IMG/VR virus record: IMGVR_UViG_3300003885_000007
Location: 1 to 47,602 of that record
Direction: 5' to 3' (one strand)
DNA length: 47,602 bases
From: a virus
The position numbers were made by a program, and so were the translations under genes. Below are positions 19 through 47,599 of this stretch, in pieces (position 1 is the stretch's first letter; each line of letters opens with the position of its first letter). Under the pieces are notes generated by a model. The model was not told the origin of the DNA and did not search any database. It saw only the letters and a program-made list of their open reading frames with translations.

Positions 19-171
19 ATGCATATACAGGTAGATATTAAGATCACTATTAAAATAGCTTTACAGACTGAATATAAACGAGTAGCTAACGAGAAAGATG
101 CAGACGTGTTGTGTAGAAGTAACCAAATGACGCGGATATTAAACGCTCTTGACTGGTTAGAGAGTAAGTAA
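19..171 (+). CDS. Small hypothetical protein, 50 aa (cargo gene of repeat module 4)
   Basis: A 50-residue frame begins with ATG 8 bases or so after an AGAGG Shine-Dalgarno. I do not recognise the product. It is charged, has no membrane segment, and ends ALDWLESK. If the window is circular it directly follows the short glycine repeat frame at the right end, exactly as the other small genes of this region follow their repeat frames. That position makes it a likely early accessory gene. Function unknown. Confidence 0.6.
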   Translation: MHIQVDIKITIKIALQTEYKRVANEKDADVLCRSNQMTRILNALDWLESK

Positions 172-194: not shown

Positions 195-223
195 TTGACA
201 TTTAGATACAAACATGCGATAAT
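195..223 (+). promoter_or_regulatory. Sigma70-type promoter
   Basis: TTGACA at 195-200 and GATAAT at 218-223 are separated by 17 bases, which is near consensus. It should drive the early module array starting with the small membrane peptide at 258. Confidence 0.75.
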
Positions 224-348: not shown

Positions 349-360
349 TAGTATATACTA
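349..360. promoter_or_regulatory. TAGTATATACTA palindrome, copy 1
   Basis: Perfect 12-bp inverted repeat 15 bases before the start codon of the first glycine repeat gene. The surrounding TACTAATAGGTAAAG is nearly the same as at the copy at 47496, so element plus Shine-Dalgarno are duplicated as a unit. Confidence 0.7.
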
Positions 361-374
361 ATAGGTAAAGATAT

Positions 375-686
375 ATGGAAAATAAGAATGTAGGTAAAGG
401 TGACGGTGCCGGTAGAGGTTACGGTAGCGGTTACGGTAACGGTGACGGTTACGGTAACGGTGCCGGTAACGGTTACGGTGACGGTTACGGTTACGGTGCC
501 GGTGACGGTTACGGTAACGGTAACGGTGACGGTAGCAGCTACGGTTACGGTGCCGGTGACGGTTGCGGTAGCGGTTACGGTTACGGTTACGGTTACGGTG
601 CCGGTGACGGTTACGGTAGCGGTTACGGTTACGGTGACGGTGACGGTACCGGTGAAGGTGACGGTTCCGGTTACGGTAACGGTTAA
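375..686 (+). CDS. Glycine-rich Gly-X repeat protein (repeat module 1)
   Basis: After a short non-repeat start (MENKNVGKG), nearly every second residue of this 103-aa protein is Gly. The alternating residues are Tyr, Asp, Asn, Ala and Ser. Gly is encoded almost only by GGT and the partner codon almost always ends in C, so the DNA is a GGTNNC hexamer array. Composition resembles disordered Tyr/Gly-rich low-complexity proteins; no catalytic motif is seen. An overlapping frame reads Val-Thr repeats and is also open, a by-product of the hexamer. I favour the Gly frame because its start and AGG Shine-Dalgarno are shared with the copy at 47522. Its base composition is far more GC-rich than its neighbours. 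Function unknown. Confidence 0.6.
   Translation: MENKNVGKGDGAGRGYGSGYGNGDGYGNGAGNGYGDGYGYGAGDGYGNGNGDGSSYGYGAGDGCGSGYGYGYGYGAGDGYGSGYGYGDGDGTGEGDGSGYGNG
393..683 (+). repeat. GGTNNC hexamer array R1
   Basis: About 48 tandem 6-bp units, mostly GGTTAC, GGTGAC, GGTAAC, GGTGCC and GGTAGC. Each GGTNAC unit contains the interrupted palindrome GTNAC. Confidence 0.85.
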
Positions 687-698
687 TAGTATATACTA
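687..698. promoter_or_regulatory. TAGTATATACTA palindrome, copy 2
   Basis: Starts right after the stop of repeat gene 1 and abuts AAGGAG, the Shine-Dalgarno of the gene at 710. It could act as an operator or as a control site in the RNA. Confidence 0.7.
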
Positions 699-709
699 AG
701 GAGTATATT

Positions 710-961
710 ATGAAAGTAGCAAGTCCCCGCGTGGCACAGCCCCGTGTTTTAGCAAAACGAGCACAGATTAACTATGATGATCCCGAAGTACAGGTTAATA
801 TGTTTTATATAGCTTCTGAGCTTGCTTATCAGGCAGGTCTCCCTATTCTGGGTAATTTTATGCAATGTCAGGCAGGTATTGCTGAGCAAAAGGCTGGTTC
901 TGACCAGCAAGACAAACAACTACTGTTAATTGAGAATAATTCTCGTGCTACAGTTTCTTAA
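710..961 (+). CDS. Small hypothetical protein, 83 aa
   Basis: Cargo gene of module 1. AAGGAG precedes the ATG with good spacing. The N-terminus is basic (VAQPRVLAKRAQ) and is followed by a mixed region with one Cys. No recognised family. The start region (ATGAAAGTAG) matches the start of the cargo gene at 1668, so the translation start is part of the duplicated element while the bodies differ. Confidence 0.65.
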   Translation: MKVASPRVAQPRVLAKRAQINYDDPEVQVNMFYIASELAYQAGLPILGNFMQCQAGIAEQKAGSDQQDKQLLLIENNSRATVS

Positions 962-983
962 TATCATTAAAAGGTACTTAATT

Positions 984-1367
984 ATGAAAAAGAAAGAAAA
1001 CGGCGAATTACAAACTATCTCTTTAGATGGTGTAGACTATGTACGTAAAGATAGCGTAGATCTGGCACCAGCTGCAAAAGGCATGGCATATTGCGTAGTT
1101 AGAACTTATTCAGCAGGCGTACATATAGGTTATGTGGCCGAATTTGGAACTTTACACAATAAATATGCAAAGCTGATTAATTCACGTCGGTTATTTTCAT
1201 GGGAAGGGGCTTGCAGTCTGTCACAGGTAGCTATGGAGGGCGTTTCCTCTAATTCCCGCTTAGCTATAGAAGTCCCTGAAATTGAGCTGTCAGAAGCTAT
1301 TGAAGTTATCCCCTGCTCAGAAAAAGCTAGAAAAGTTTTGATGTCACTCACTGTCTGGAAAAAATAG
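984..1367 (+). CDS. DUF6948-like phage protein, 127 aa
   Basis: The pattern CVVRTYSAGVHIG, then INSRRLFSWEGACSLSQVA, then AIEVIPCSEKARK is that of a small family common in phages, which I recall as DUF6948. Function unknown. The frame is open upstream to 930, but the ATG at 984 has an AAAAGG Shine-Dalgarno and gives the expected N-terminus (MKKKENGELQ). It is a second cargo gene behind repeat module 1. Confidence 0.75.
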   Translation: MKKKENGELQTISLDGVDYVRKDSVDLAPAAKGMAYCVVRTYSAGVHIGYVAEFGTLHNKYAKLINSRRLFSWEGACSLSQVAMEGVSSNSRLAIEVPEIELSEAIEVIPCSEKARKVLMSLTVWKK

Positions 1368-1374
1368 TTCTCAA

Positions 1375-1644
1375 ATGAGCACTACTTGTGTAGGTTACGG
1401 TGACGGTTCCGGTGCCGGTAGAGGTTACGGTAACGGTTACGGTAGCGGTTACGGTTACGGTGACGGTGCCGGTAACCGTTACGGTAACGGTAGAGGCAAC
1501 GGTTACGGTTACGGTGACGGTAGCGGTGACGGTTACGGTAACGGTGCCTGTCACGGTTACGGTGACGGTGCCGGTAACCGTTACGGTAACGGTAGAGGCA
1601 ACGGTACCGGGTACGGTAACGGTGACGGTGACGGTGACGGTTAG
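1375..1644 (+). CDS. Glycine-rich Gly-X repeat protein (repeat module 2)
   Basis: This 89-aa frame starts MSTTCVGYGDG and continues as Gly-X dipeptides with Tyr, Asp, Asn, Ser, Ala and Arg. There is no convincing Shine-Dalgarno, so translation may depend on coupling to the gene ending at 1367. A Val-Thr frame overlaps it. Two 51-bp blocks inside are identical. Function unknown. Confidence 0.5.
   Translation: MSTTCVGYGDGSGAGRGYGNGYGSGYGYGDGAGNRYGNGRGNGYGYGDGSGDGYGNGACHGYGDGAGNRYGNGRGNGTGYGNGDGDGDG
1393..1643 (+). repeat. GGTNNC hexamer array R2 with a 51-bp internal duplication
   Basis: Positions 1453-1503 and 1555-1605 are identical, offset by 102 bp or 17 hexamers. This points to recent unequal exchange or slippage within the array. 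Confidence 0.85.
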
Positions 1645-1656
1645 TAGTATATACTA
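1645..1656. promoter_or_regulatory. TAGTATATACTA palindrome, copy 3
   Basis: Directly after the stop of repeat gene 2 and followed by AAGGAGTATATTATG, the same arrangement as copy 2. Confidence 0.7.
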
Positions 1657-1667
1657 AGGAGTATATT

Positions 1668-1868
1668 ATGAAAGTAGTAAAATATCGACGTAACCCAAAT
1701 AACCTAATTAAGGCGGGTTTTCCTGCATTTATTCAGCCTATTAACCATCCTAGTGATTTAGTATCAAATAATTCATTTGCCAGAACATCTATTGTTCAGC
1801 ATGTAGGTAAGCATGGCGGATTTATTACTGAAAATACTATGTATATACCCCATCAAGAGGTTACTTAA
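1668..1868 (+). CDS. Small hypothetical protein, 66 aa
   Basis: First cargo gene of module 2, with AAGGAG 7 bases before the ATG. Basic start (MKVVKYRRNPNN), no membrane segment, no recognised family. Its stop touches the next start (TAAATG), so the two are probably translationally coupled. Confidence 0.6.
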   Translation: MKVVKYRRNPNNLIKAGFPAFIQPINHPSDLVSNNSFARTSIVQHVGKHGGFITENTMYIPHQEVT

Positions 1869-2018
1869 ATGCTTACTAATCAGATGATACATAATAGTAT
1901 TTTACAGGACTGGATAGAGGGATTAGCTAGTCTACCTATCACTATTAAAAGATTGTGCCTATTAAATGGCTGGACAGACTATGGTGCTATAGACATTAAG
2001 GACATTCCCTATGTATGA
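1869..2018 (+). CDS. Small hypothetical protein, 49 aa
   Basis: Starts immediately after the upstream stop. The 49 residues include WIEGLASLPITIKRLCLLNG and end KDIPYV. The last 8 bases overlap the start of repeat gene 3, linking their translation. No family recognised. Confidence 0.5.
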   Translation: MLTNQMIHNSILQDWIEGLASLPITIKRLCLLNGWTDYGAIDIKDIPYV

Positions 2019-2277
2019 CGGTTACAGCGACGGTAACGGTAACGGTAACGGTTTCGGTAACGGTAGCGGTGACGGTTACGGTAACGGTAACGGTAACGGT
2101 AACGGTTACGGTGACGGTACCGGTTACGGTGACGGTAACAGTAACGGTAACGGTTACGGTGACGGTACCGGTTACGGTGACGGTTACGGCTACGGTAGCA
2201 GTTACGGTAACGGTAGCAGTTACAGTGGCGGTGACGGTGACGGTGCTGGTAGCGTTAACGGCGGTGGTAAAGGTTAA
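2011..2277 (+). CDS. Glycine-rich Gly-X repeat protein (repeat module 3)
   Basis: 88 aa, beginning MYDGYSDGNGNG and made of Gly-Asn, Gly-Asp, Gly-Tyr and Gly-Ser dipeptides. An AAGGA Shine-Dalgarno lies about 8 bases upstream. The next ATG, at 2015, opens the Val-Thr frame instead, so the two frames compete for one ribosome site; I favour the Gly frame. The tail (AGSVNGGGKG) is decayed repeat. Confidence 0.55.
   Translation: MYDGYSDGNGNGNGFGNGSGDGYGNGNGNGNGYGDGTGYGDGNSNGNGYGDGTGYGDGYGYGSSYGNGSSYSGGDGDGAGSVNGGGKG
2017..2268 (+). repeat. GGTNNC hexamer array R3 with internal duplication
   Basis: About 42 hexamers. Positions 2101-2136 and 2149-2184 are identical, offset by 48 bp or 8 units. 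The right end is degenerate. Confidence 0.8.
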
Positions 2278-2289
2278 TAACATATACTG
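2278..2289. promoter_or_regulatory. Degenerate TAGTATATACTA element
   Basis: TAACATATACTG keeps 9 of 12 bases. It sits at the standard place between repeat gene 3 and a GAGGAATATATTATG start site, so the architecture is kept although the palindrome is broken. Confidence 0.5.
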
Positions 2290-2300
2290 AGGAATATATT

Positions 2301-2540
2301 ATGTATGAAGTAAAAGTAGTAAAAGGTAGTAAAGTGTGTATATCTGATACACCTGCAGATGCAGTAACTGTACACAGTATTCTTATCCCAATAACTGTAT
2401 GGGAAGCCTGCCTAGTACATGGAGCAGAAGTAAGGTATCTAGAAGCTAGGCTAACTAGAGTACTTAGCCCCGACACAAAGAAGAAAGAGGCGAAATGCTT
2501 TATATGTGACTCAAAAAATAAGGGATGCGGATGGAAATAA
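2301..2540 (+). CDS. Small hypothetical protein with C-terminal Cys pair, 79 aa
   Basis: First cargo gene of module 3, preceded by TGAGGAA. The C-terminus contains CFICDSKNKGCGWK, a possible half metal site. Otherwise unrecognised. Its end overlaps the membrane protein gene at 2531. Confidence 0.6.
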   Translation: MYEVKVVKGSKVCISDTPADAVTVHSILIPITVWEACLVHGAEVRYLEARLTRVLSPDTKKKEAKCFICDSKNKGCGWK

Positions 2541-2839
2541 CACCAGTACAAGCTATATATTTATTTATACAAGCAGGAGTATTACTATTTTCTGCTTATT
2601 TATTAATTGAGCGTAAATGGCGGATACTTGCCATAGTTATAGGAGCATCAATGATAATAACATTAGCTGCCCCTGTTCGTATGACTATAGCCCCCTTACC
2701 TACGTATTACGAAACATCTTTTGAGGATTTACCTGAAAAGGTATCTCAAGAACCTGAGGACTTTAACGAGTCTTTAATTAACGAGCTAGAACAGCTCAAA
2801 CAACAGTCTGAGGACTTACAATATGAAATACATGACTAA
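2531..2839 (+). CDS. Small membrane protein with acidic coiled tail, 102 aa
   Basis: I chose ATG 2531 over ATG 2525 because AAGGG lies at proper spacing only for the former. Two hydrophobic segments lie near residues 8-25 and 31-50. A hydrophilic tail rich in Glu and Gln follows (INELEQLKQQSEDL), possibly a coiled coil. It overlaps the SPFH-like lipoprotein gene by 17 bases, so the two may form an envelope complex. That is inference only. Confidence 0.65.
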   Translation: MEITPVQAIYLFIQAGVLLFSAYLLIERKWRILAIVIGASMIITLAAPVRMTIAPLPTYYETSFEDLPEKVSQEPEDFNESLINELEQLKQQSEDLQYEIHD

Positions 2840-3982: not shown

Positions 3983-4648
3983 ATGGGTGTTGTTTTCCAG
4001 TTCTTTGATAAAGATATGCGCCAACTATCGGACAAGACGACTGACATCTGCTTTGGCTTTTTTCAAGGAGGATATTCCGCCGACTTTAGAGCTAAAGTTG
4101 CTTATATTAAGTATTTTCCATATACTGTGCTTGCTAGAGCTACTGCTAACTCCTATTTACGCCTTTTACGTAAGGCGGGTATAGAGGAGATTGTTGATTT
4201 TCCTAAGAGGAGCTCCTATACTTCTATCTGTAAAACAGGTGTTTCTGTAGACCTTACTAAACACTCTGTCCCAATTGCTGTGGGGGCTTTAGAATTGATT
4301 CGTAATGCTTGTAACCATCCAAGATTCATTGATAACGTAATGGCTACTTATGCTCATAAATTCCACCCCTTAGTAGCCCTGTACATGCCGAGAGTGGGGT
4401 ATATAGAATGCCCTTATGCAGACACTACTGCTCCTTTTTCTGCTAAGTATGATATAGGTAATATCAGTATATTCAGAAATGCTAAACAAAACAAAGATAA
4501 ATATGGTTTATGGAAAGATAGAAATGACTATCGCGGAGTGTTTGATGTGTATTCTGGAGACAGTATACGAAAAATCGGTAATATTAAGCACTCTGTTAAT
4601 GGAATAAGAGAAGTAGAGGCAGAATTAATGAAAAGGAAATTATTATGA
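3983..4648 (+). CDS. Hypothetical protein of the peptide-modification operon, 221 aa
   Basis: I do not recognise the family. The frame has normal composition and ends with a basic helix (REVEAELMKRKLL). Its stop overlaps the start of the amidoligase gene by 4 bases, so the two are translated together. The position suggests a partner or substrate carrier of the amidoligases; this is inference. Confidence 0.65.
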   Translation: MGVVFQFFDKDMRQLSDKTTDICFGFFQGGYSADFRAKVAYIKYFPYTVLARATANSYLRLLRKAGIEEIVDFPKRSSYTSICKTGVSVDLTKHSVPIAVGALELIRNACNHPRFIDNVMATYAHKFHPLVALYMPRVGYIECPYADTTAPFSAKYDIGNISIFRNAKQNKDKYGLWKDRNDYRGVFDVYSGDSIRKIGNIKHSVNGIREVEAELMKRKLL

Positions 4649-5454
4649 GTACAATTGGCTGTGATCCAGAAGTATTCTTAGTGGATACTTCTGGTGAATA
4701 TATCCCTAGTATAGGGTTAGTTGGGGGGACTAAAAAGAGCCCCTTAAAAGTTGTTGGTGGCTTTGTACAAGAAGACAATGTAACCGCTGAGTTTAATATA
4801 CCTCCTATAGACTTAGATGCTCCAGAAGACTTTGTGGCAGCAGTACAGCTAGTAATGAAGTCTTTAGAAGATAAAGTAAGTAAAAAGAACCTTAAACTAT
4901 CTTTAAGGAGTAGTGCTAGATTTCAGCCACATTTTCTCCAAAATGAGGCAGCAATAGAGTCTGGGTGTGATCCAGATTTAAATGTATATTCAGGTAAACG
5001 TAATGTATATCCCTCTTTATTTTATACAGATATGCGTTCCTGCGGAGGACATATACACTTCGGTGATAAAGATATCTTCCAAGAACCGGGCTCACGTGAA
5101 GCATTTATAAAACTATGTGACTACCATATTGGTCTGCCTTTAAACGCTATCTCATGGGACAAGGAGCGAACACAGACGTATGGAAAAGCAGGGAATTATA
5201 GGTACAAGCCTTACGGGGTAGAATACCGAACACCTAGCAACATATGGCTACATACTGCCGAGTTAATGTACTTTGTTTGTGAAGGTATACGTAAAGCTAA
5301 ATCTGATTTAATTACAAATAATATTCGGAATATTAATATAGTGAATGCGTTAGCTGTAGACACTATAACTTCAGGAGACTTTTCACAATACCTTAGTCTC
5401 CTCCCTGCAATTGACCGTAAGTTTATTACTCATATAAGGAAGACAGTATGTTAA
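4645..5454 (+). CDS. phiEco32-like amidoligase-type 2 (COOH-NH2 ligase)
   Basis: A 269-aa GS-like carboxylate-amine ligase. Visible motifs are GCDPEVF at residues 5-11, DNVTAEFNIPP at 44-54, CGGHIHFG at 133-140 and GVEYRTPSNIW at 191-201. The acidic and His residues match the metal/ATP and substrate sites of the phage amidoligase-type 2 family. The enzyme should use ATP to form an amide bond between a carboxylate and an amine, on a peptide or small molecule. It overlaps both neighbours by a few bases. The family and its linkage to the enzymes below are known from comparative genomics (Iyer and colleagues); its substrate is not established. Confidence 0.9.
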   Translation: MSTIGCDPEVFLVDTSGEYIPSIGLVGGTKKSPLKVVGGFVQEDNVTAEFNIPPIDLDAPEDFVAAVQLVMKSLEDKVSKKNLKLSLRSSARFQPHFLQNEAAIESGCDPDLNVYSGKRNVYPSLFYTDMRSCGGHIHFGDKDIFQEPGSREAFIKLCDYHIGLPLNAISWDKERTQTYGKAGNYRYKPYGVEYRTPSNIWLHTAELMYFVCEGIRKAKSDLITNNIRNINIVNALAVDTITSGDFSQYLSLLPAIDRKFITHIRKTVC

Positions 5455-6071
5455 TTGAACATGACTCTCTAGCCGACACACAATTACGCTTCACTGGAGT
5501 ACTAGGAACTATTAAAAATAGACCTTGCATGTTAACCACAATTCTTTCCATAGACCATGTTAATCAGGTATTTTTTTCTAATATAGAGCGGCTATGTAAA
5601 GATTCTGGTATGTGGGAAAGGGAGAACAATGTTAAAATTAATGTAAAGGATTTTTCATTAGTTTTCCCTTTGCTTGGTTTTACTAACTTTGGTAAAGATG
5701 CTTATTTTGTGACCCGAGGTATGCCCGGATCGTATCGGGTAGGTGCTACTAAAAATGCATATGATGTGAAGCTAGTCCCCGGCAACCTAGATACTAATAG
5801 AAAAACATTAATACTAATGAGAAGCGTTACTCCAACTTATGTTGACTTAAATCAAGCGCTTGATTTAGTATTTTCAGGAATAAGGAACAGCTGTGCTGTT
5901 ACCGCATCTCTGTGTATTATAAAGAAGGATAGTCGTAGTGTATACGTTTTTAGAGATATGCTCTCTATAGGCACGCTAGATATGAGCACTAGTACCCTAG
6001 AGCTAGAAAAAATAAATATTTGTTATAAAGAAGAGCTTAAAGAAGCTGGAATCACTGTGAAGGAATTATAA
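5448..6071 (+). CDS. Hypothetical protein of the peptide-modification operon, 207 aa
   Basis: Not recognised. It lies between the two amidoligase genes, overlapping the first by 7 bases and ending 2 bases before the second. The mixed alpha/beta composition shows no membrane segment and no catalytic motif that I can name. The operon position makes an accessory role in the same pathway likely. Confidence 0.65.
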   Translation: MLIEHDSLADTQLRFTGVLGTIKNRPCMLTTILSIDHVNQVFFSNIERLCKDSGMWERENNVKINVKDFSLVFPLLGFTNFGKDAYFVTRGMPGSYRVGATKNAYDVKLVPGNLDTNRKTLILMRSVTPTYVDLNQALDLVFSGIRNSCAVTASLCIIKKDSRSVYVFRDMLSIGTLDMSTSTLELEKINICYKEELKEAGITVKEL

Positions 6072-6073
6072 AG

Positions 6074-6976
6074 ATGAAAAAGATATTAGGTAATGTTTTT
6101 GGGCACTCTCCTGATGTGGCTACACGAAAGCTATCTAAGGATATAGCTAATCATAGCTTTATAGGCATAGAAATAGAGGTAGAAAATGCTAAGGCAATGC
6201 TTAAGCTTCTGCCTAATTATTGGTGGAAGCAGGTCGCTGAGCATTCTGTAAGAAATGACGGTATAGAGATAGTAACCGCTCCTATTAAGGGAGAAGACAT
6301 CTTTTCTGCATTAGATTCTTTTGAGGTTATGCATAAGCTATCCCCTAAATTGCAAACATCTGCAAGGACTGGTGTGCATATACACATAGACTTTAGGGAC
6401 AATACATTAGAAGAATTAAAGAGATTTGTATCCTTATACACTATCTTTGAGAAAGTGCTGTTTAGTGTCTGTGGTGCTGGGCGGGAAAATAATCCATACT
6501 GTGTCCCTATATCTAGTGGCAACTATGTGCATAGCGCCCTACTTGCCTTAAACTCTGATAGTGAATTAATAAACTTTATGATATATATTAATAAATATTA
6601 TGCACTAAACTTACGTCCTCTAGCAACGCAGGGCTCTATAGAGTTTAGAGCTATGGAAGGGACTTTAGACACTAAAAGAATACTAGAACTTATAAATATG
6701 CTATTATCTATTAAGACTTATGCGGAGAAGTCTGAGGAAGGGACTAAACAATTAGTAGATAACGTATGTATTGATACTAGGGCCTATTACTATGAAGTAT
6801 TAGGGCAATCCTGCCCTGAATTTACAGCTATACAAGGAGCTAACATGCTAGAAAACTCTAGACATTTACAACACGCTAATAATTCAAAGAGTACCAAGGG
6901 CCCCCGTCCTCCGAAGCCTAGGAGATATTTTGCGTCCCCGGAAAATCCCGTTTTTATTGGTGAGGGTGCTTCGTAA
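6074..6976 (+). CDS. Putative amidoligase (Amidoligase_2 family)
   Basis: 300 aa. The GS-like fold is indicated by FIGIEIEVEN near residue 29, SVRNDGIEIVTAPI near 59, TGVHIHIDFRD near 100 and LRPLATQGSIEFRAMEGT near 182. These carry the metal-binding Glu and His residues and a substrate Arg. The tail after residue 265 is Pro/Lys/Arg-rich and probably disordered. It should catalyse ATP-dependent amide formation, perhaps a second step after the type 2 enzyme. The stop overlaps the glutamine amidotransferase start by one base. Confidence 0.88.
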   Translation: MKKILGNVFGHSPDVATRKLSKDIANHSFIGIEIEVENAKAMLKLLPNYWWKQVAEHSVRNDGIEIVTAPIKGEDIFSALDSFEVMHKLSPKLQTSARTGVHIHIDFRDNTLEELKRFVSLYTIFEKVLFSVCGAGRENNPYCVPISSGNYVHSALLALNSDSELINFMIYINKYYALNLRPLATQGSIEFRAMEGTLDTKRILELINMLLSIKTYAEKSEEGTKQLVDNVCIDTRAYYYEVLGQSCPEFTAIQGANMLENSRHLQHANNSKSTKGPRPPKPRRYFASPENPVFIGEGAS

Positions 6977-8289
6977 TGTGTGGATTATTTGGATATATCA
7001 CTCCTTCTCCTAAAGTAGAGACCTCTAAATTTAAGTCATTCTTTAATCAGGCTCTGATTGTAGATTCATTACGAGGGGAAGATAGTACTGGGGTTTTACT
7101 AGTCAATGAAGACGACTCTGTATTTTCATATAAGAAAGCATTAGCTGGATATGATTTTAAATGGCTAAGTAAGTACTGTACTACCTTATTTAAAGCTTCT
7201 CCAAGAGTAGCTATGGGGCACAATAGATGGGCATCTATGGGAGCAGTCACACATGCAACTGCTCACCCATTTAAGTATGGGCATATCAATCTATCCCATA
7301 ATGGTACATTAAGCAATCACAGAATGTTAGATAAAGAAAACAACTCTAAAACAGATAGTGACTTTTTAGCCTACAGTTTTTCTACTATAGGGGTTCTAGA
7401 GACACTTAAAGTTATACGAGGCTCTTTTGCAATTACATGGGTAGATACTGATCTGGGCACATTTAATATAGTTAGAAATAGTGAAAGAGAGCTATACACC
7501 TGTAAGACAACTAACCATAGCTTATTGTACGCCTCAGAGAAAGGTTTATTAAGTTGGATTACTGAGAGAAATAAAATTACAGTAACTGCCCCAGAACTCT
7601 TACCTGAAAAAGAGTGGCATCAAATTAATATTAAAACAGGTGCCATTGACGTAATAAAAGTGGAATTTATTGCTCCGTATTCATCTAACCAATCATATGG
7701 GGGATATGGATATAATGACTATAGTAAAGGAAATAAAAACTACAAAGTAAATACAAAGCTAAGTAGTTCTGGAAAAGCCTTAGAAAGGATTGGCATTGAA
7801 GTAGACGAGACTATCTATATTAATTATGATAAAAAAATAATTAACAATGCCAGTATGTTTAGTTTATGTGAGTGGTACTCTCCTCCTAAAGATATTATAA
7901 TATTAATAAAGGACTATGTGACTAAGAAGGATTATATAAGAGAGAATGCTAATGAAATGTTCTCGGCCACAGTTGTTGGATGTAGTCATAGACAAGACAG
8001 CAAAGACTACCATGTATACGTAAAGGACATACAAGCAAACGTAATAATGGACGACGTAAGCACAGGCAAAGATTTACCTATATATATAGGCCCTAATGAT
8101 GTACCCATCTCTAGACTTGAGTGGGAGATTATGACTAGGCATGGGTGCGACGTATGTACAGCCTCAATTGATATAGAGCTAGATAAGGAAATTAAATGGA
8201 CACGTAGCATGACTCCTGTATGCAGTGAATGTGTTAATGAGTATAATAAGAGCCCAGATACACACGTACTTAGGGGGATGCTTCTGTAA
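6976..8289 (+). CDS. Class II glutamine amidotransferase
   Basis: 437 aa. The Ntn-type N-terminus has Cys2 directly after Met (MCGLFGYI). RGEDSTG lies at 33-39, GHNRWAS at 81-87 and SHNGT at 107-111, as in GATase2 domains of PurF and AsnB type. It should release ammonia from glutamine for a linked amidation. No synthetase domain of the AsnB type follows. The C-terminal half is unrecognised and ends with two Cys pairs (CDVC and CSEC), probably a zinc site. The ammonia acceptor is presumably made by the neighbouring amidoligases or ATP-grasp enzyme. Overlaps the next start by one base. Confidence 0.9.
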   Translation: MCGLFGYITPSPKVETSKFKSFFNQALIVDSLRGEDSTGVLLVNEDDSVFSYKKALAGYDFKWLSKYCTTLFKASPRVAMGHNRWASMGAVTHATAHPFKYGHINLSHNGTLSNHRMLDKENNSKTDSDFLAYSFSTIGVLETLKVIRGSFAITWVDTDLGTFNIVRNSERELYTCKTTNHSLLYASEKGLLSWITERNKITVTAPELLPEKEWHQINIKTGAIDVIKVEFIAPYSSNQSYGGYGYNDYSKGNKNYKVNTKLSSSGKALERIGIEVDETIYINYDKKIINNASMFSLCEWYSPPKDIIILIKDYVTKKDYIRENANEMFSATVVGCSHRQDSKDYHVYVKDIQANVIMDDVSTGKDLPIYIGPNDVPISRLEWEIMTRHGCDVCTASIDIELDKEIKWTRSMTPVCSECVNEYNKSPDTHVLRGMLL

Positions 8290-8555
8290 TGTCCGCTAAG
8301 GTAGTTTGTATAGTAAAAGATAGTTTAATATATAATAAGGAGGAGCCTTTAGAAGTAGTCTATAGGGAGATATTTAAAGAACTTATAGCTCTTTGCTCTT
8401 TATATAAAATTTATATGGACGTTAGTGATGTAGGTAATATTAAAATTTATGGAACAACTGCATCTTTTAGGAGGCGAGTTAAGCGCTTATATCCCGGAAT
8501 ACAGCCAGTACGTACTGGCAAAACAATCTCTCTAGGAGAATTTTTATGCGAATAG
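8289..8555 (+). CDS. Hypothetical protein, 88 aa
   Basis: Small alpha/beta protein ending in GKTISLGEFLCE, unrecognised. It is coupled on both sides: one base overlap upstream and 10 bases with the ATP-grasp gene. Confidence 0.6.
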   Translation: MSAKVVCIVKDSLIYNKEEPLEVVYREIFKELIALCSLYKIYMDVSDVGNIKIYGTTASFRRRVKRLYPGIQPVRTGKTISLGEFLCE

Positions 8556-9346
8556 TATTATATCCCTATAAAATAGGAAGCGCTTCATGCAGAGCGCTAC
8601 AAAGCAAGTTAACCGAGCACGTAGACACTTTACGCGTATTTCCAGACAAGGCGTATACCTCTAAAAAAGGTGATATCGTAGTAAACTGGGGAACATCGTC
8701 ACCACCTACTTGGAAAGTTCCAGCAAATATGCTTAATTCCTTAAAAGCAGTTAAGTATGCTACAAATAAGATAAGAACTTTTGATAAGCTACTGCAGTCA
8801 AATTCTGAGTTTTTTGGCCCTAGAATACCTGAGCACACGACTAGTCCTACTCTAGTACGTGCATGGCTAGATCATGGTTGCGCAGTAGTAGTGAGACACG
8901 CATTAGAGGGACACTCGGGGAAAGGTATAGAGATGCTGCTTCCAGAAGGAGATGGAGATATTCCTAACGCACCTCTATACACTAAGTACTCCAAAAAGGC
9001 GAGGGAATTTAGAGTACATGTCTTTAAGGGGAGGGCTACTTTAATACAAGAAAAGAAGTTACCGAGAGGCGTAGACAAAGAGCAAACTAATTATGCAGTC
9101 AGAACACACGCAACTGGTTGGATATTTGCAACAAAGAATTTAGAGAAGATTGATAAGTCAGTTAGTGTGCTAGCGATAGAGGCAGTAGCTGCTTTAGGTC
9201 TTGATTTTGGTTCCGTTGATGTACTATGGAATAACCATTACTCTAGAGCATCTCTACTTGAAGTGAACACAGCGTGTGGGCTAGAGGGCATAACCTTAGA
9301 TACATACACACAGGAGATACTTAAGTATGTTAACTCTAGTAAATAA
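8546..9346 (+). CDS. ATP-grasp family ligase
   Basis: 266 aa. The phage ATP-grasp pattern is visible: INWGT-like VVNWGTS near residue 47, ATNKIRTFDKL near 73, then VVVRHALEGHSGKGIEM near 112 as the glycine-rich ATP loop. KAREFRVHVFKGR follows near 149, and LDFGSVDVLW plus SLLEVNTACGLEG near the end supply the metal-binding Asp, Glu and Asn. It should activate a carboxylate as acyl phosphate and join it to an amine. The AGGAG upstream supports the start. It belongs with the amidoligases in the phage peptide-modification system. Confidence 0.88.
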   Translation: MRIVLYPYKIGSASCRALQSKLTEHVDTLRVFPDKAYTSKKGDIVVNWGTSSPPTWKVPANMLNSLKAVKYATNKIRTFDKLLQSNSEFFGPRIPEHTTSPTLVRAWLDHGCAVVVRHALEGHSGKGIEMLLPEGDGDIPNAPLYTKYSKKAREFRVHVFKGRATLIQEKKLPRGVDKEQTNYAVRTHATGWIFATKNLEKIDKSVSVLAIEAVAALGLDFGSVDVLWNNHYSRASLLEVNTACGLEGITLDTYTQEILKYVNSSK

Positions 9347-9773
9347 GAATGCTGCAGGTGAAATTGAAGAAGTCAATCTTAATGGAGTAATAGATAGGAT
9401 TAGGGGATTCTGTGGTGGATGTATACTACATAGCTGGTCACTTACCGGAGGTAGCTCCGACTTATCTGTGGAGACTAAAAATGTGTTTGCTAAACAGGTT
9501 ACAGATTATTTGCTAAGTGAGTCAGACATTGACGTAAGAGGAGGGTTAGAAAACGAAGAACAACTGACCCGCGGCACAGTGATTGCAACTGATGCTATAC
9601 ACGGAGAAGTAGATAACCCAGCAGCATTTACGCTATGGTATGTAATGACACATGACCATAGATGGTGCCTGTCCCCAGTCTCCACTAACTGGAAATCAGA
9701 CAATGAGGTCATAACTGGTATTTTATTATCTGAGTATGATGAAGAGCGTACAACCTATTTTAACAATCTTTAG
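9327..9773 (+). CDS. Hypothetical protein, 148 aa
   Basis: Unrecognised acidic protein with several Cys and His residues (FCGGCILHSW and MTHDHRWCLSP). It overlaps the ATP-grasp gene by 20 bases and is followed at short distance by the GGCT-like gene. It is probably part of the same pathway by position. Confidence 0.6.
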   Translation: MLTLVNKNAAGEIEEVNLNGVIDRIRGFCGGCILHSWSLTGGSSDLSVETKNVFAKQVTDYLLSESDIDVRGGLENEEQLTRGTVIATDAIHGEVDNPAAFTLWYVMTHDHRWCLSPVSTNWKSDNEVITGILLSEYDEERTTYFNNL

Positions 9774-9784
9774 GAGTATTTGTA

Positions 9785-10123
9785 ATGTTAGTATTTGTTT
9801 ATGGAACACTTAAGAAAGGTCATGGTAATCACAGGTTATTAACTAATGCTAAGTTTATTAAGACAGCAGAAACTATGCCTAAATATACTATGTTTGATAC
9901 CGGGGGGTTTCCTGCTGTAATTCCTGTAGGTAACACCTCTATTAAGGGAGAGATATATGAAGTTACTCAGGATGAGGCTAGGTCTTTAGATAGTCTGGAA
10001 GGCTATCCGTCTATGTACGATAGAGAAGAGACGCCATTACTAGGAGAGGAGATGACTCCTTGGATGTATTTATGGCAATACTCCACTAATCGCATGCCTA
10101 TTAAGGAGAATGGAGTATGGTAA
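9785..10123 (+). CDS. Gamma-glutamylcyclotransferase-like (AIG2/GGCT) protein
   Basis: 112 aa, the normal length for the family. VYGTLKKG at residues 5-12 is the signature substrate loop. SIKGEIYEV supplies the probable catalytic Glu, and LDSLEGYPSMYDR is the conserved C-terminal half. Such enzymes split gamma-glutamyl amide links with release of 5-oxoproline. In the operon it may remove or edit isopeptide links made by the amidoligases. AGGAG precedes the start. Confidence 0.88.
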   Translation: MLVFVYGTLKKGHGNHRLLTNAKFIKTAETMPKYTMFDTGGFPAVIPVGNTSIKGEIYEVTQDEARSLDSLEGYPSMYDREETPLLGEEMTPWMYLWQYSTNRMPIKENGVW

Positions 10124-16436: not shown

Positions 16437-16600
16437 TGTATACTAAACAGAAATACCATGTGGACATTACAGAAGCGTGTGCTAGGGCCTTTAATATGCA
16501 CAACGGTATCCCATGCCATATAGAGGGCAGGAGATATTTACAGATGATTAAAAGAATGCTAGACTCTATGGGAGTGCGGTATGGGCACGATGGACGCTAG
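16436..16600 (+). CDS. Small hypothetical protein, 54 aa
   Basis: Starts on the last base of the helicase stop and overlaps the polymerase start by 20 bases. Basic helical sequence (CHIEGRRYLQMIKRMLDS). Unrecognised; the tight coupling suggests a replication accessory role. Confidence 0.6.
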   Translation: MYTKQKYHVDITEACARAFNMHNGIPCHIEGRRYLQMIKRMLDSMGVRYGHDGR

Positions 16601-17660
16601 GCTTCTACCCCACTGGTTACGGAACTCTAGCCCAGAGATATACTTATCTGATAACTATGTCGTGCTTGATTTTGAAACTACAAATAAGAGTAAAGGATCT
16701 GTCTTAGAGGAAGACAATAGTATTGTACTTAGTGCGTATAAAGTGGGAACAGACCACAAGGAATATACAGGCGTACCCGTGGCCTGCATAGGCAACCAGT
16801 TCCATCAGGATAGACTGATGAAAGCTATAGAGTCTGCTGACTTTATAGTTGCTCAGAACACTAAGTTTGAGTTACAGTGGTTAACTCGCTGCGGACTAAA
16901 GTTAGAAACAGTCCTACCCTTTGATACGATGCTAGCTAAGTATGTACAAAATGGGAACAGACGCACCCCTTTAGATCTAGATTCTATTGCCGCCACATAT
17001 AGTCTAGGTAAAAAGATGTCCTCTGTCAGTAAGCTTATTAAATTTGGAGTGTGCCCTAGCCAGATACCAGTACCTATGTTACGCAGATACTGTGTACAAG
17101 ATGTATTACTGACTGAGCAGATCTTCCTTAAGCAGAGGCAGGAGCTATTACAAGATGGCTTACTAGCAGTGGCGTTTACTAGGAATATATTTACTCCCGT
17201 ATTAGCTGATATTGAAATGACAGGAATGCAACTAGACTCTGAACAAGTGCTAGATTATTTCGAGGAGTACTCTAGGGTACATGCGAACGTACTAGAACAA
17301 CTGAATACTTTTTCAGAGGAGGTTAACTGGAACAGCCCCAATCAAGTAGCAGAGTTTGTATATGAAGGCCTAAAGTTTAAAGAGTTAGAGATACGTGGAA
17401 GTCCTATAAGAAATAAGCCTAATAAGCGCTTTCCTAACGGCGCTCCTAAGACAGATACAGCAACCTTATCTGCACTAGTAGCAACTAATAAGCGACAAAG
17501 AATCTTTACTGACTTATATGCGAGAAACTCAAAGCTTAAGAAAAGCTTGACAACGTACCTAGCTCTCTTTAAGACGAGTGTATTAGAAAAAGGAGGAATG
17601 TTATACGGTAAATTTAACCAAGCTATTACACAGACACATAGACTGAGCAGCTCTCAGCCT
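16581..17660 (+). CDS. DNA polymerase, family A, exon 1
   Basis: Residues 1-360 of the spliced polymerase. The N-terminal 3'-5' exonuclease has VVLDFETT (motif I), VAQNTKFELQWL (motif II) and YCVQDVLLTE (motif III). The polymerase domain begins with KFNQAITQTHRLSSSQP, the conserved template-contact segment. Without splicing the frame runs into the intron and stops at 17708. The exon ends after CCT at 17660: CAGCCU at the exon end can pair with GGGCUG in the intron to form P1 with the U-G pair at the splice site. GGGAG precedes the start. Confidence 0.85.
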
Positions 17661-18354
17661 GAGATTATTGGGCTGAATAAACAGTGTGAATTCAGGGGAC
17701 ATCTCTAGTAGACAATCCTGAGCGAAGCTAATACCATTACTGCCACAGGAGGCACAACATGGATAAGATAAAAGACTTATATGAGAACACAGAGTACACT
17801 ATTCAAGAGATAGCTGATATGCTGGGTGTTGCTTTCTGGAAAGTTGGTGGATATCTCCACAAGAACTATCCTATAGAGCATAGACTGGCAAGAAAGAGCA
17901 TCTGTTATAGGAATTCTAAACTAGGCAATAAAAATCCTAGTCATGGAAAGAATGGCAAAGATAGTAAAAAGTTTATTGGAGACATATCTGACGGCAAGGG
18001 CTATATACTTAACCTAAAACCAGACTGGTATACAGGAAGAAAGGGATGTAAGCATGTCTTTAAGCACTCTATAGTTATGTGTGAGTCAATGTTTATGTCA
18101 GAGATTCCTCAAGGTTTTTGTATCCATCATATAGATGGGAATAAAACTAACAATAATATAAACAATCTTGCCTTAATGACCTTAGGGGCTCATTCAAGAC
18201 TTCATCAATTAGAACGTGCAACGACTAGTCGAAAGACGTAGGGGAAAGGACAGTACCCGAAGCGCATTGCAGTAGTTGAGGAGACTAGCTACTGATGATA
18301 TAGTCTGATCTGTATGGCGACATACAGAGTACATGGACAGACGTAACATAAATG
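17661..18354 (+). other. Group I intron in the DNA polymerase gene
   Basis: 694 bases. The 5' site follows exon CAGCCT, with an internal guide GGGCTG ten bases on. The core CATCTCTAGTAGACAATCC near 17701 is very close to the corresponding core of the T4 td intron. GATATAGTC near 18296 fits the 3' half of P7. The intron ends in G at 18354. Removing it joins ...SSSQP to NFQNFDRNF in frame, restoring a normal family A polymerase segment. An HNH endonuclease gene lies inside. Confidence 0.88.
17759..18241 (+). CDS. HNH homing endonuclease, intron-encoded
   Basis: 160 aa with CAGGAGG upstream. The N-terminal part (YTIQEIADMLGVAFWKVGGY) looks like a helix-turn-helix for DNA binding. A segment with NKNPSHGKNG is typical of NUMOD-like repeats. 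The catalytic HNH part is KHSIVMCE, then CIHHIDGNKTNNNINNL, then LGAHSRLHQ. It should cut intronless polymerase alleles and so spread the intron. The frame ends before the 3' intron core. Confidence 0.88.
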   Translation: MDKIKDLYENTEYTIQEIADMLGVAFWKVGGYLHKNYPIEHRLARKSICYRNSKLGNKNPSHGKNGKDSKKFIGDISDGKGYILNLKPDWYTGRKGCKHVFKHSIVMCESMFMSEIPQGFCIHHIDGNKTNNNINNLALMTLGAHSRLHQLERATTSRKT

Positions 18355-19101
18355 AATTTCCAGAATTTTGACCGTAACTTTAAACAGCTATTTACTAGCA
18401 GGAGAAGAAGAGATGGATGGCGAATTGGAGAACGAGATGCAGCTCAACTTGAATTCAGAATTGCAGCCCATGTTGGAGGAGATGAGCAGGCTATTAAGGA
18501 CATTAACGAAGGATACGACATACATGCATACACGGCTTCAGTTATTGGCTGTGAACGAACACCAGCCAAGGCGCATACTTTTAAACCTTTGTTCGGCGGC
18601 ACTAGCGGCACAGCAAACGAGCAACGATATTATAAAGCTTTTAGGAAAAAATACCACCAGATTACATCCACACAGGATGGATGGGTTAACGAAGCTTTGT
18701 TGTCAAAACAGCAAGTGTTACCAACCGGGCTGATATTTTACTGGCCTAAGATTAAACTAACACGCACAGGGTATGTAGAAGGAAATACTAATGTTAGAAA
18801 TTACCCAATACAGAGCCTAGCTACAGCAGAAATAATTCCTGTAGGAGTTACGTATGTATGGCATTATATGAAGGCCCTTAGTTTAGAGTCTATGATTATT
18901 AACACGGTACATGACAGCATCATTACTGACGAGAACCCAGAGGAGACAGAGACATTAAACGAGATAACTGACTATGTGTTTGCCCAAGAAATCCCAGATT
19001 ATTTAAACACAGTATATAACATTACTCTGAAGATACCCTTAAAGGTAGAAGCAGAACTATCCGACAACTGGGGATACTATCCCCCTAAGATAATTAACTG
19101 A
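18355..19101 (+). CDS. DNA polymerase, family A, exon 2
   Basis: Residues 361-608 of the spliced product. Motif A is ERDAAQLEFRIAAH with the catalytic Asp. Motif B is RTPAKAHTFKPLFGG with Arg and Lys of the O helix. Motif C is INTVHDSIITDE. The unspliced frame could start at ATG 18352, whose G is the last intron base; this is not a true start. The total length of about 608 aa is shorter than the 704 aa of T7 polymerase. It is the phage replicase. Confidence 0.88.
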   Translation, partial: NFQNFDRNFKQLFTSRRRRDGWRIGERDAAQLEFRIAAHVGGDEQAIKDINEGYDIHAYTASVIGCERTPAKAHTFKPLFGGTSGTANEQRYYKAFRKKYHQITSTQDGWVNEALLSKQQVLPTGLIFYWPKIKLTRTGYVEGNTNVRNYPIQSLATAEIIPVGVTYVWHYMKALSLESMIINTVHDSIITDENPEETETLNEITDYVFAQEIPDYLNTVYNITLKIPLKVEAELSDNWGYYPPKIIN

Positions 19102-44816: not shown

Positions 44817-44893
44817 TGGTCAGGACGGTGAGAATCGAACTCACGACATCTGGGCGCCAAAGCCAGCACTCTACCAAACTGAGTTACGCCCTG
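44817..44893 (-). tRNA. tRNA-Pro (anticodon TGG)
   Basis: 77 bases with encoded CCA. Acceptor CAGGGCG/CGTCCTG, D arm ACTC/GAGT, T arm GTGAG/CTCAC with loop TTCGATT. C1-G72 and A73 are tRNA-Pro identity features. The anticodon loop is TTTGGCG, with an unusual C at position 37, and there is a C-C mismatch at 31-39. Confidence 0.85.
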
Positions 44894-45896: not shown

Positions 45897-46200
45897 TCAA
45901 TAGCTTAGGCCAAAGTACGAAATCGTTAAATTTCCCCCAATTTTGTGCTGCCGTATTACAGCACTTTTTCTTTTTCCCGAATTTCCCCCACCCCCGATTG
46001 AATGCGAACGCAAATGAGAATGATTCGTGTTACTACTACGGCTACGATTAGTGTTACTGCTATTGTTAGTGTACTGATTATTGTTTGTGTTAGTGTTATT
46101 AGAACTGTTAGCAGTCACAATCCACGGGGGTATAAGGGGGATTAATGGGGTATTAACTCAGCTAGTTCTAGGGGGGGAATATTATTATATTAGTTTAGTA
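45897..46200. other. Low-complexity and G-rich region with a possible minus-strand Asn/Ser/Thr-rich frame
   Basis: On the minus strand a GTG-started frame (46118-45897, 73 aa) reads TANSSNNTNTNNNQYTNNSS and then His/Arg/Gly-rich sequence. It has no Shine-Dalgarno and I doubt it is a gene. The same strand carries runs GGGGG, GGGGG, GGG and GGGGG within about 80 bases. Plus-strand G runs follow at 46125-46180. Meaning unknown; it lies between two divergent transcription units and could be part of an origin. Confidence 0.4.
45945..45974 (+). terminator. Rho-independent terminator, plus strand
   Basis: GTGCTG and CAGCAC flank CCGTATTA and are followed by TTTTTCTTTTT. No plus-strand gene lies upstream, so it may stop antisense transcription or end a small RNA. 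Confidence 0.6.
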
Positions 46201-46210
46201 GTATGTACTA
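46199..46210. promoter_or_regulatory. TAGTATATACTA-like palindrome (one mismatch)
   Basis: TAGTATGTACTA, 11 of 12 bases. Lies in the intergenic region upstream of the early gene at 46617. Confidence 0.45.
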
Positions 46211-46455
46211 ACTAAGTGATCCCGTTAGTACCTTATTAGTAATCAGTAACTTACTTATATAGCCGTTAGTATATACTATCAGTATTAATCTATCAAAAGT
46301 GTAAGGTTTACCCGATAGTTGTCGATATTCTTTACATAGCTAAGTTATTGATTTTATTCATTATCCTGTTTTTAGGTGTCGGTACACTTTACACTTTACA
46401 TGTATATAGCTGTATTAGTCTTTTCTAATCTTTTGTAAGTTATTGTATTCTATAC
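46211..46455. other. AT-rich intergenic region with short repeats, possible origin
   Basis: No gene seen on either strand. It holds a perfect TAGTATATACTA, a tandem ACACTTT (46384-46397) and its inverted counterpart AAGTGTAA (46297-46304) facing TTACACTT (46389-46396). AT-rich sequence with iteron-like repeats between divergent units fits a replication origin, but no further evidence is available. Confidence 0.35.
46267..46278. promoter_or_regulatory. TAGTATATACTA palindrome
   Basis: Perfect copy in the large intergenic region, not next to a start codon. This speaks for a DNA-level (operator) role for at least some copies. Confidence 0.65.
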
Positions 46456-46459
46456 ACTA

Positions 46460-46488
46460 TTGATACTTGGCACCGATAGTGCAATAAT
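46460..46488 (+). promoter_or_regulatory. Sigma70-type promoter
   Basis: TTGATA at 46460-46465 and AATAAT at 46483-46488, 17-base spacer. It drives the gene at 46617 with a leader of about 120 bases that contains a TAGTATATACTA copy. Confidence 0.65.
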
Positions 46489-46565: not shown

Positions 46566-46577
46566 TAGTATATACTA
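46566..46577. promoter_or_regulatory. TAGTATATACTA palindrome
   Basis: Perfect copy in the leader of the early gene, about 40 bases before the start codon and 78 bases after the promoter -10 box. A roadblock-type operator or an RNA control site is possible. Confidence 0.65.
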
Positions 46578-47495: not shown

Positions 47496-47507
47496 TAGTA
47501 TATACTA
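47496..47507. promoter_or_regulatory. TAGTATATACTA palindrome
   Basis: Perfect copy before the start of the short repeat gene at 47522, embedded in the same flanks (GTAGTATATACTAATAGG) as the copy at 349. Confidence 0.7.
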
Positions 47508-47521
47508 ATAGGTAAAGGTAA

Positions 47522-47599
47522 ATGGAAACTAATTATGTAAATAACCGTAACGGTAACGGTAACGGTGACGGTAGCGGCTACGGTTACGGCTATAGTTAA
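47522..47599 (+). CDS. Short glycine repeat peptide (repeat module 4), 25 aa
   Basis: METNYVNNRNGNGNGDGSGY followed by GYGYS, ending at a double stop on the last bases of the window. AAGG precedes the start. It is the shortest of the four repeat genes and has only about seven Gly-X units, so the array is either nascent or contracted. A Val-Thr frame has no start here, which supports the Gly frame as the coding one in the whole family. Confidence 0.55.
   Translation: METNYVNNRNGNGNGDGSGYGYGYS
47543..47593 (+). repeat. GGTNNC hexamer array R4 (short)
   Basis: About eight units (AACGGT, GACGGT, AGCGGC, TACGGT), the same unit family as R1-R3. Confidence 0.75.

Follow-up and report, generated by a model that had tools for sequence, protein, structure and literature searches.

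LSm and SSB proteins can carry low-complexity tails, the linker of E. coli SSB being one example (PMC12143593, PMC11947617). For the family DUF6948 (PF22253), the Pfam entry gives no function, no Gly-X partner and no Sm-like fold. Here we describe a widespread phage gene pair, in which a DUF6948 gene is followed by a gene for an almost pure (Gly-X)n protein. The two genes are linked by their pairing, their overlap and one fusion. The pair appears to be undescribed: a search of the open-licence literature for the pair, for DUF6948 or for glycine-rich hexamer repeats in phages found no relevant paper. It has apparently been overlooked in part because annotations omit the repeat gene or call it in another frame. 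The phiPLPE annotation lacks it, and that of CV-1-33 has Met-Ala repeats in its place.

Repeat genes in the window

The window, the whole stretch that we analysed, comprises 47,602 nucleotides (positions 1 to 47,602 of IMG/VR virus record IMGVR_UViG_3300003885_000007). A sequence-only reading had pointed to arrays of the hexamer GGTNNC, and these are real: the pattern has 106 matches against 0 in 100 shuffles. The arrays are in frame and are protein genes for (Gly-X)n, X being chiefly Tyr, Asp, Asn, Ser or Ala. A second, non-coding array copy was not found within the window, nor did the locus or array 1 show DNA similarity to annotated phages. The genes of the locus are as follows.

19..171, plus strand: gene of 50 aa; on a circular record it would follow array 4
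375..686, plus strand: array 1, (Gly-X)n gene of 103 aa; an extra copy, without DUF6948 upstream
710..961, plus strand: gene of 83 aa, 3' of array 1 and 5' of DUF6948; no relatives found
984..1367, plus strand: DUF6948 protein of 127 aa, the conserved partner, a predicted Sm/LSm-like small barrel (Pfam PF22253, E 8e-25)
1375..1644, plus strand: array 2, (Gly-X)n gene of 89 aa immediately 3' of DUF6948, the pair found in other phages
1668..1868, plus strand: 66-aa gene; no significant family (DUF6957 at E 0.085, under the cut-off)
1869..2018, plus strand: 49-aa gene; no family
2011..2277, plus strand: array 3, (Gly-X)n gene of 88 aa, its start overlapping the 3' end of the 49-aa ORF
2301..2540, plus strand: 79-aa gene; no significant family
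2525..2839, plus strand: 104-aa gene; no relatives found
47522..47599, plus strand: array 4, short (Gly-X)n gene of 25 aa, leader and first codons like array 1

The DUF6948 protein is a clear member of PF22253 (87.2 bits against a gathering cut-off of 27, covering positions 1-84 of the 85 in the profile). Three of the four arrays have no DUF6948 gene. The window is an unusual version of the pair, having three additional repeat genes as well as interspersed small genes. These small genes show no visible similarity to one another and, with the exception of DUF6948, have no relatives in the loci compared; for the 83-aa and 104-aa genes, a search of phage records also found none. It is plausible that the genome is circular and that the ends of the record join into a fourth junction.

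Several copies of a palindrome lie between and ahead of these genes.

195..223, plus strand: promoter-like sequence 5' of array 1, TTGACA-17-GATAAT with an extended -10 (a match only, at 11 of the 12 bases of the consensus)
349..360, unstranded: palindrome TAGTATATACTA, 26 nt 5' of the start of array 1
687..698, unstranded: palindrome TAGTATATACTA, between the stop of array 1 and the Shine-Dalgarno of the 83-aa gene
1645..1656, unstranded: palindrome TAGTATATACTA, between the stop of array 2 and the Shine-Dalgarno of the 66-aa gene
2281..2293, plus strand: degenerate palindrome CATATACTGAGGA after array 3, read directly
46199-46210: one-mismatch copy, divergent early control region
46267..46278, unstranded: palindrome TAGTATATACTA, divergent early control region
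46566..46577, unstranded: palindrome TAGTATATACTA, ahead of the first early gene (46617-47312)
47496..47507, unstranded: palindrome TAGTATATACTA, ahead of array 4

There are 6 exact copies of TAGTATATACTA where 0.05 are expected, and all lie within 46267 to 1656 across the record junction. After arrays 1 and 2 the junctions (stop, palindrome, AAGGAG and ATGAAAGTAG) are nearly identical. The sequence-only reading placed a palindrome and Shine-Dalgarno after each array. This holds for arrays 1 and 2; the copy after array 3 is degenerate and array 4 is followed by a half-site only. Because the palindrome also occurs at 46199, 46267 and 46566, remote from the arrays, it is an element of the early region and not the mark of a module. 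Most simply, it would be an operator of that region. Nor does the proposed link to arrays extend beyond the window: none of 5 other contigs with an exact TAGTATATACTAAGGAG carries an array, hence the palindrome is not a general companion of arrays. An RNA hairpin with the Shine-Dalgarno in its loop was rejected as well: the two junctions that scored best gave folding z of -1.4 and -1.2, and the remaining ones did not exceed chance.

Thus only part of the modular layout survives. The arrays, the near-identical junctions after arrays 1 and 2 and the lack of visible similarity among the small genes stand, while the palindrome as module mark and the assignment of cargo genes do not. The supposed cargo of the first module takes in DUF6948 (984-1367), which goes with array 2.

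The pair in other phages

When phages are compared, it is the upstream DUF6948 gene that is conserved with an array, not a variable gene downstream as had been proposed. When array loci were picked solely by the DNA pattern (GGTNNC)8, 57 had at least 300 nt upstream and were counted. In 49 of these the upstream gene encodes DUF6948 (E<1e-5). One further locus has DUF6948 at E 0.007 (L119), another is a DUF6948-array fusion (L086), and three have a divergent DUF6948 relative upstream (L116, L127 and L012). Together, DUF6948 or a divergent relative precedes the array in about 54 of 57 loci. The upstream gene of L031 could not be supported as DUF6948-like, and the divergent protein encoded upstream in the L119/L116 family gave a structure model with a pLDDT of 59, which was set aside.

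The converse also holds. A Gly-X gene lies 3' of DUF6948 in 114 of 121 loci (76 of the 79 viral loci, among those listed, and 38 of 42 genomic ones), and 4 of the 7 loci scored without one show one on reading. All five annotated phage records that were fetched contain the pair, including phiPLPE, CV-1-33 and IKEMa6-1. DUF6948 occurs in at least 573 of the 600 candidate viral stretches listed; 80 were kept, and it is in these that the presence of both genes was checked.

The two genes are closely coupled. The Gly-X start overlaps the end of DUF6948 in 125 of 158 pairs, most commonly at an offset of -13 (82 pairs), and in 89 pairs its ATG falls on the conserved Trp codon. Near the DUF6948 stop, an ATG is found in the Gly-X frame in 132 of 148 pairs, and in 30 and 2 pairs in the other frames. 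Recombination genes are frequent neighbours: 143 neighbouring ORFs include ERF (7), RecT (7) and Sak4/AAA_24 (6), besides RecE/YqaJ and Gp157. In one locus (L221) the pair sits among apparent structural genes. Tandem Gly-X genes occur in 14 other loci, with 2-6 genes each and gaps of 5-221 nt, and no cargo gene lies between them.

Array turnover and rival explanations

The arrays are repeated and conserved, and they are kept open as protein genes, as the sequence-only reading had it; they are also fast-changing. Each array holds one pair of wobble bases while its X codons vary. In 3,847 units from 136 arrays, the Gly wobble base departs from the array's commonest form 122 times and the X wobble base 104 times, against 2,072 times for the first two bases of X. 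The wobble classes differ between phages (GGC-NNT, GGT-NNC, GGC-NNC, GGG-NNC and others) and share no DNA motif. The set of X dinucleotides (TC, TA, GA) is the same under several of these classes. A fixed wobble pair combined with varying X codons suggests that arrays turn over rapidly under selection on the protein.

Could the arrays instead be homology tracts by which phages acquire, drop and exchange small genes of the early region? The near-identical junctions followed by unrelated genes, and cargo genes without relatives, would fit such a cassette system. However, four close relatives (L275, L277, L280 and L282, DUF6948 DNA 91-96% identical) vary in array length from 17 to 39 units while their flanks are unchanged, with upstream genes 86-93% and downstream genes 79-93% identical. 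L073 and L124 agree, since the array varies and the downstream flank is conserved. Cargo swapping is therefore not supported. The 14 other multi-array loci without cargo and the conserved neighbour being the upstream one also count against it, and we regard it as very improbable. Relatives without arrays do exist in a loose sense: L141 and L145, the two closest relatives in which amidoligase and terminase are both retained, lack array, DUF6948 and palindrome, but at a terminase identity of 45-49% they are too distant to inform on cargo history. In the lineage to which the window belongs, some exchange of cargo may still have taken place. Among 41 loci examined as terminase relatives, none has arrays or the palindrome, and searches of viral contigs with the SPFH protein or the 231-aa early protein found no close relatives.

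The array might also work as DNA or RNA (a binding-site array, a decoy or a recombination signal) with the protein incidental. Two nearly fixed wobble bases beside varying amino-acid-changing bases are the reverse of ordinary coding sequence and speak for this idea. Yet the wobble class is phage-specific without a common DNA motif, the encoded X set is shared and the Gly-X frame retains its start codons, so we give this idea a low probability. We rate as equally low the chance that the array is a functionless, neutral repeat expansion at the end of the DUF6948 operon. Array length does vary widely and quickly, but an array lies beside almost every DUF6948 gene, in contigs whose bins span many phyla of bacteria and some of archaea, and both the X set and the start overlap are kept. 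It is unlikely too, if a little less so, that the two genes serve in anti-defence or as toxin and antitoxin, the repeat protein acting as decoy, inhibitor or antidote. Two small overlapping early genes, patchily present and one of them fast-changing, would suit this idea; against it, the best PADLOC match is a partial stretch at E 0.04, Pfam gave no family with such a function, and we know of no precedent for a pure low-complexity antitoxin.

Targeted mutagenesis of a GGTAAC template, A to N, as in diversity-generating retroelements, is hardly credible. Like the targets of these elements, array codons vary at the first two bases before a fixed third, and the variation is confined to hexamer bases 4-5, as AAC to NNC would yield. 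Unlike them, the arrays show the wrong substitution spectrum, mainly TC (1003), TA (818) and GA (660); AA makes up 5% of units (137) and CA less than 1% (24), and CC, CT and CG are absent. No template repeat was seen, and reading the larger ORFs of the window revealed no reverse transcriptase.

Predicted fold and proposed role of the pair

Structure prediction gives DUF6948 the shape of a small barrel, similar to the Sm/LSm fold. The core of its AlphaFold model has a pLDDT of about 97, and comparison with the PDB (Foldseek, VIA) returns Sm/LSm structures in the top rows, including 3by7. Mostly 56-75 residues align, at an rmsd of about 2-3. The matches are weak (Z at most 7.2, under 8; Foldseek E 0.05 and up). 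Assignment by sequence failed: hhalign against three archaeal Sm proteins gave a probability of 0.2 and no profile signal, and a Pfam scan of 48 DUF6948 members found no LSM model. The Sm assignment thus comes from the predicted fold alone.

We propose, with slightly more belief than doubt, that the pair is an accessory two-gene operon whose barrel protein and low-complexity partner act jointly on single strands. The first gene would supply the predicted Sm/LSm-like barrel, which may bind single-stranded RNA or DNA through conserved Arg and aromatic positions. The second, usually starting inside the last codons of the first, would supply the (Gly-X)n protein, with X mainly Tyr, Ser and Asp. 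By analogy with the disordered tails of SSB and LSm proteins, this Tyr-rich protein could be a flexible and sticky partner, bringing complexes together or tethering them early in infection. Its Asp content makes it acidic, which disfavours direct nucleic-acid binding of its own; this, and the three arrays of the window without a DUF6948 gene, weigh against the proposal. Arrays would lengthen and shorten by slippage or unequal recombination, while selection on the protein would hold them to a Gly-[Y/S/D] composition. In the lineage of the window, duplication would have produced four copies of the repeat gene, which unrelated small genes now separate.

A more specific version is possible but doubtful. 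Here an Sm-like ring and the Gly-Tyr-rich protein would form an RNP-like or ssDNA-binding, condensate-like module that organises recombination or RNA early in infection; if true, prokaryotic viruses would have their own equivalent of the LSm proteins that carry low-complexity tails. The siting beside recombination genes may reflect only insertion into early regions.

The pair, apparently unnoticed so far, occurs in several hundred viral contigs or more. Should the predicted Sm-like protein cooperate with the Gly-X protein, phages would carry a compact system of nucleic-acid-binding barrel and low-complexity protein, and the arrays would document in nature how repeats turn over fast while selection acts on amino-acid composition.

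Like phage morons, the pair occurs in unrelated surroundings at 75-80% DUF6948 DNA identity; unlike them, it often lies among early recombination genes and not among structural ones. With Sm/LSm proteins (archaeal SmAP, eukaryotic LSm and the Sm-like 3by7), DUF6948 would share its predicted small beta barrel, but it differs in having no sequence-profile signal, a helix that separates barrel strands three and four, and a partner gene. The pair resembles a tailed LSm or SSB protein in that a predicted small barrel is combined with a disordered partner, the two being fused at L086. In contrast to these proteins, the disordered part in phages has, with rare exceptions, its own pure Gly-X gene that overlaps the barrel gene.

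DUF6948 and the Gly-X gene

Scanning viral contigs for (GGTNNC)8 returned at least 119 stretches, many of them coding for (Gly-X)n in which X is Tyr, Ser or Asp. The DNA upstream of the arrays is alike across loci: it is nearly always the end of a gene for DUF6948 (Pfam PF22253). By profile, DUF6948 lies directly upstream in 55 of 81 array loci, many of the remainder being cut by a contig end. For array loci with at least 300 nt upstream, it is found at E<1e-5 in 49 of 57. Locus L119 has it at E 0.007, in L086 DUF6948 and Gly-X are fused, and a divergent relative stands upstream in L116, L127 and L012 (hhalign or mutual alignment). Among the 57 loci, L031, L016 and L067 have no DUF6948 upstream of the array. 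Behind the divergent DUF6948-like gene of L116, L119, L127 and L012 stand as many as six Gly-X genes in tandem, whose ends are conserved (MTEYFYPVG ... TISTRTRRR).

The reverse search collected DUF6948 relatives irrespective of arrays: 80 viral loci out of at least 573 confirmed, and a further 46 loci in assemblies of bacteria and archaea. Where there is room downstream, a Gly-X gene follows DUF6948 in 76 of 79 viral and 38 of 42 assembly loci, and it is visible by reading in four of the seven apparent misses (L217, L257, L281, L325). All five annotated phage records with DUF6948 that were fetched contain the gene, written in other codons. It is absent from the public annotation of Iodobacter phage phiPLPE (L130, 1200-1403) and annotated in the Met-Ala frame in Chlorobiaceae phage CV-1-33 (L131 gene25, CV133_gene25).

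Among 158 non-redundant pairs, the Gly-X gene starts before DUF6948 ends in 125, most commonly at offset -13 (82 pairs), and its ATG falls on a conserved Trp codon of DUF6948 in 89. An ATG near the DUF6948 stop occurs in the Gly-X frame in 132 of 148 pairs, and in the other two frames in 30 and 2. The two genes almost certainly form an operon whose array is translated. DUF6948 at 984-1367 and array 2 make up the true pair of the window; arrays 1, 3 and 4 are extra copies.

Some Gly-X genes bear a C-terminal domain (L043, L062, L102, L104, L134; L010, L030, L084). Neither the domain ending TGSC..YGG nor a second one with an LHAT motif matches Pfam. On one contig (L233, L238) the same DUF6948/Gly-X block occurs twice at widely separated places, unless the assembly has duplicated a stretch. 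In L224 (3025-3789), the pair is followed directly by a repeat-rich phage gene with a GLHAS-type domain and then long Ser-Ala-Ala repeats.

Arrays, palindromes and cargo

Arrays, palindromes and promoter-like sites of the window
375-686: GGTNNC array 1, open in the Gly-X frame
1375-1644: GGTNNC array 2, open in the Gly-X frame, partner of DUF6948
2011-2277: GGTNNC array 3, open in the Gly-X frame
47522-47599: GGTNNC array 4, open in the Gly-X frame
46199: palindrome with one mismatch, away from arrays
46267: palindrome, away from arrays
46566: palindrome, away from arrays
195-223: strong promoter-like site (sequence match)
46460-46488: second such promoter-like site (sequence match)

The arrays are real: the pattern matches 106 times in the 47,602 bases of this virus record, against 0 expected by chance, and the Gly-X frame is open in all four. 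One pair of wobble bases dominates each array, chiefly GGC-NNT, GGT-NNC, GGC-NNC or GGG-NNC, and tracks genome G+C only loosely (flanks of GGT-NNC arrays range from 31 to 66%). In 3,847 units, departures from an array's commonest form number 122 at the Gly wobble, 104 at the X wobble and 2,072 at the first two bases of X. The same X dinucleotides recur under several wobble classes (TC, TA, GA, then AA and TT). We infer that the arrays are young, built from few units by slippage or unequal exchange, and that selection on the protein shaped the X residues. A function of the array as DNA would not be expected to tolerate wobble classes that change between phages, and retroelement mutagenesis would yield dinucleotides other than those seen.

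The TAGTATATACTA palindrome, which the sequence-only reading made part of a repeated module, has six exact copies in the window against 0.05 expected, all in the early region. After arrays 1 and 2 the stop codon, the palindrome, a Shine-Dalgarno site and ATGAAAGTAG follow one another in an almost identical junction; behind arrays 3 and 4 the junction is weaker. Because copies also lie at 46199, 46267 and 46566, away from arrays, an operator of early transcripts fits better than a module border.

That reading also took the arrays as homology for swapping small cargo genes. Yet L275, L277, L280 and L282, whose DUF6948 genes are 91-96% identical in DNA, differ from 17 to 39 array units while both flanks are conserved; L073 and L124 agree on the downstream side. 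Tandem Gly-X genes in 14 other loci are separated by 5-221 nt with no intervening gene; of the multi-array loci found, the window alone has genes in these gaps. The relatives L141 and L145 retain amidoligase and terminase and have no arrays, no DUF6948 and no palindrome. Swapping is therefore unsupported as a general mechanism. Flanks almost never match between loci at 75-80% identity; the pair itself has thus passed from one genome to another.

Predicted role and relation to known systems

AlphaFold models DUF6948 of the window with a mean pLDDT of 85, and about 97 across most of residues 41-127. Sm and LSm proteins dominate its best PDB matches in Foldseek, and those in VIA-align are Sm or Sm-like (top Z 7.2, rmsd 2.2 over 61 residues). 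Entry 3by7, whose description likens its structure to Sm/LSm-like proteins, reaches Z 7.1, and phage 'Sm-like' proteins in a viral structure library match too. Speaking against an Sm assignment, E-values of the fold comparison are weak, and sequence and profile comparisons give no signal linking DUF6948 to Sm. Conserved positions, including an Arg-Thr-Tyr-Ser-Ala-Gly turn and Arg-Arg-x-x-x-Trp, are compatible with a nucleic-acid surface but no proof of one. The 143 neighbour ORFs within about 2.5 kb of the pair include many single-strand annealing proteins, namely ERF (7), RecT (7) and Sak4 (6); exonucleases and Gp157 are also common.

The Sm-like model, the conserved residues and the single-strand annealing neighbours lead us to favour a role in which DUF6948 would bind single strands of nucleic acid and the Gly-X protein would be its flexible, sticky partner. 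The two proteins probably act together. For nucleic-acid binding we see an even chance; condensate formation would be a tentative, rather doubtful extension.

Other features of the window
16581-17708: DNA polymerase gene, part 1
17759-18241: HNH endonuclease ORF (PF13392), between the polymerase parts
18352-19101: DNA polymerase gene, part 2
4645-10123: COOH-NH2 ligase, Amidoligase_2, glutamine amidotransferase and GGACT gene cluster
44817-44893, minus: tRNA-Pro (anticodon TGG), head of the late operon
45897-46118, minus: 73-aa Asn/Ser/Thr-rich ORF close to the divergent control region

The HNH ORF between the two polymerase parts suggests an intron with a homing endonuclease (16581-19101); Rfam gives no intron match there at gathering score. 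The 73-aa ORF is a second low-complexity protein of the window.

The cluster at 4645-10123 is like the peptide-ligase module of phiEco32. DUF6948 is a known Pfam domain with no function attached, and a search of open-licence papers turned up nothing on its fold or partner, or on the two genes as a pair. To our knowledge the pair matches no described system, though its building blocks are familiar.
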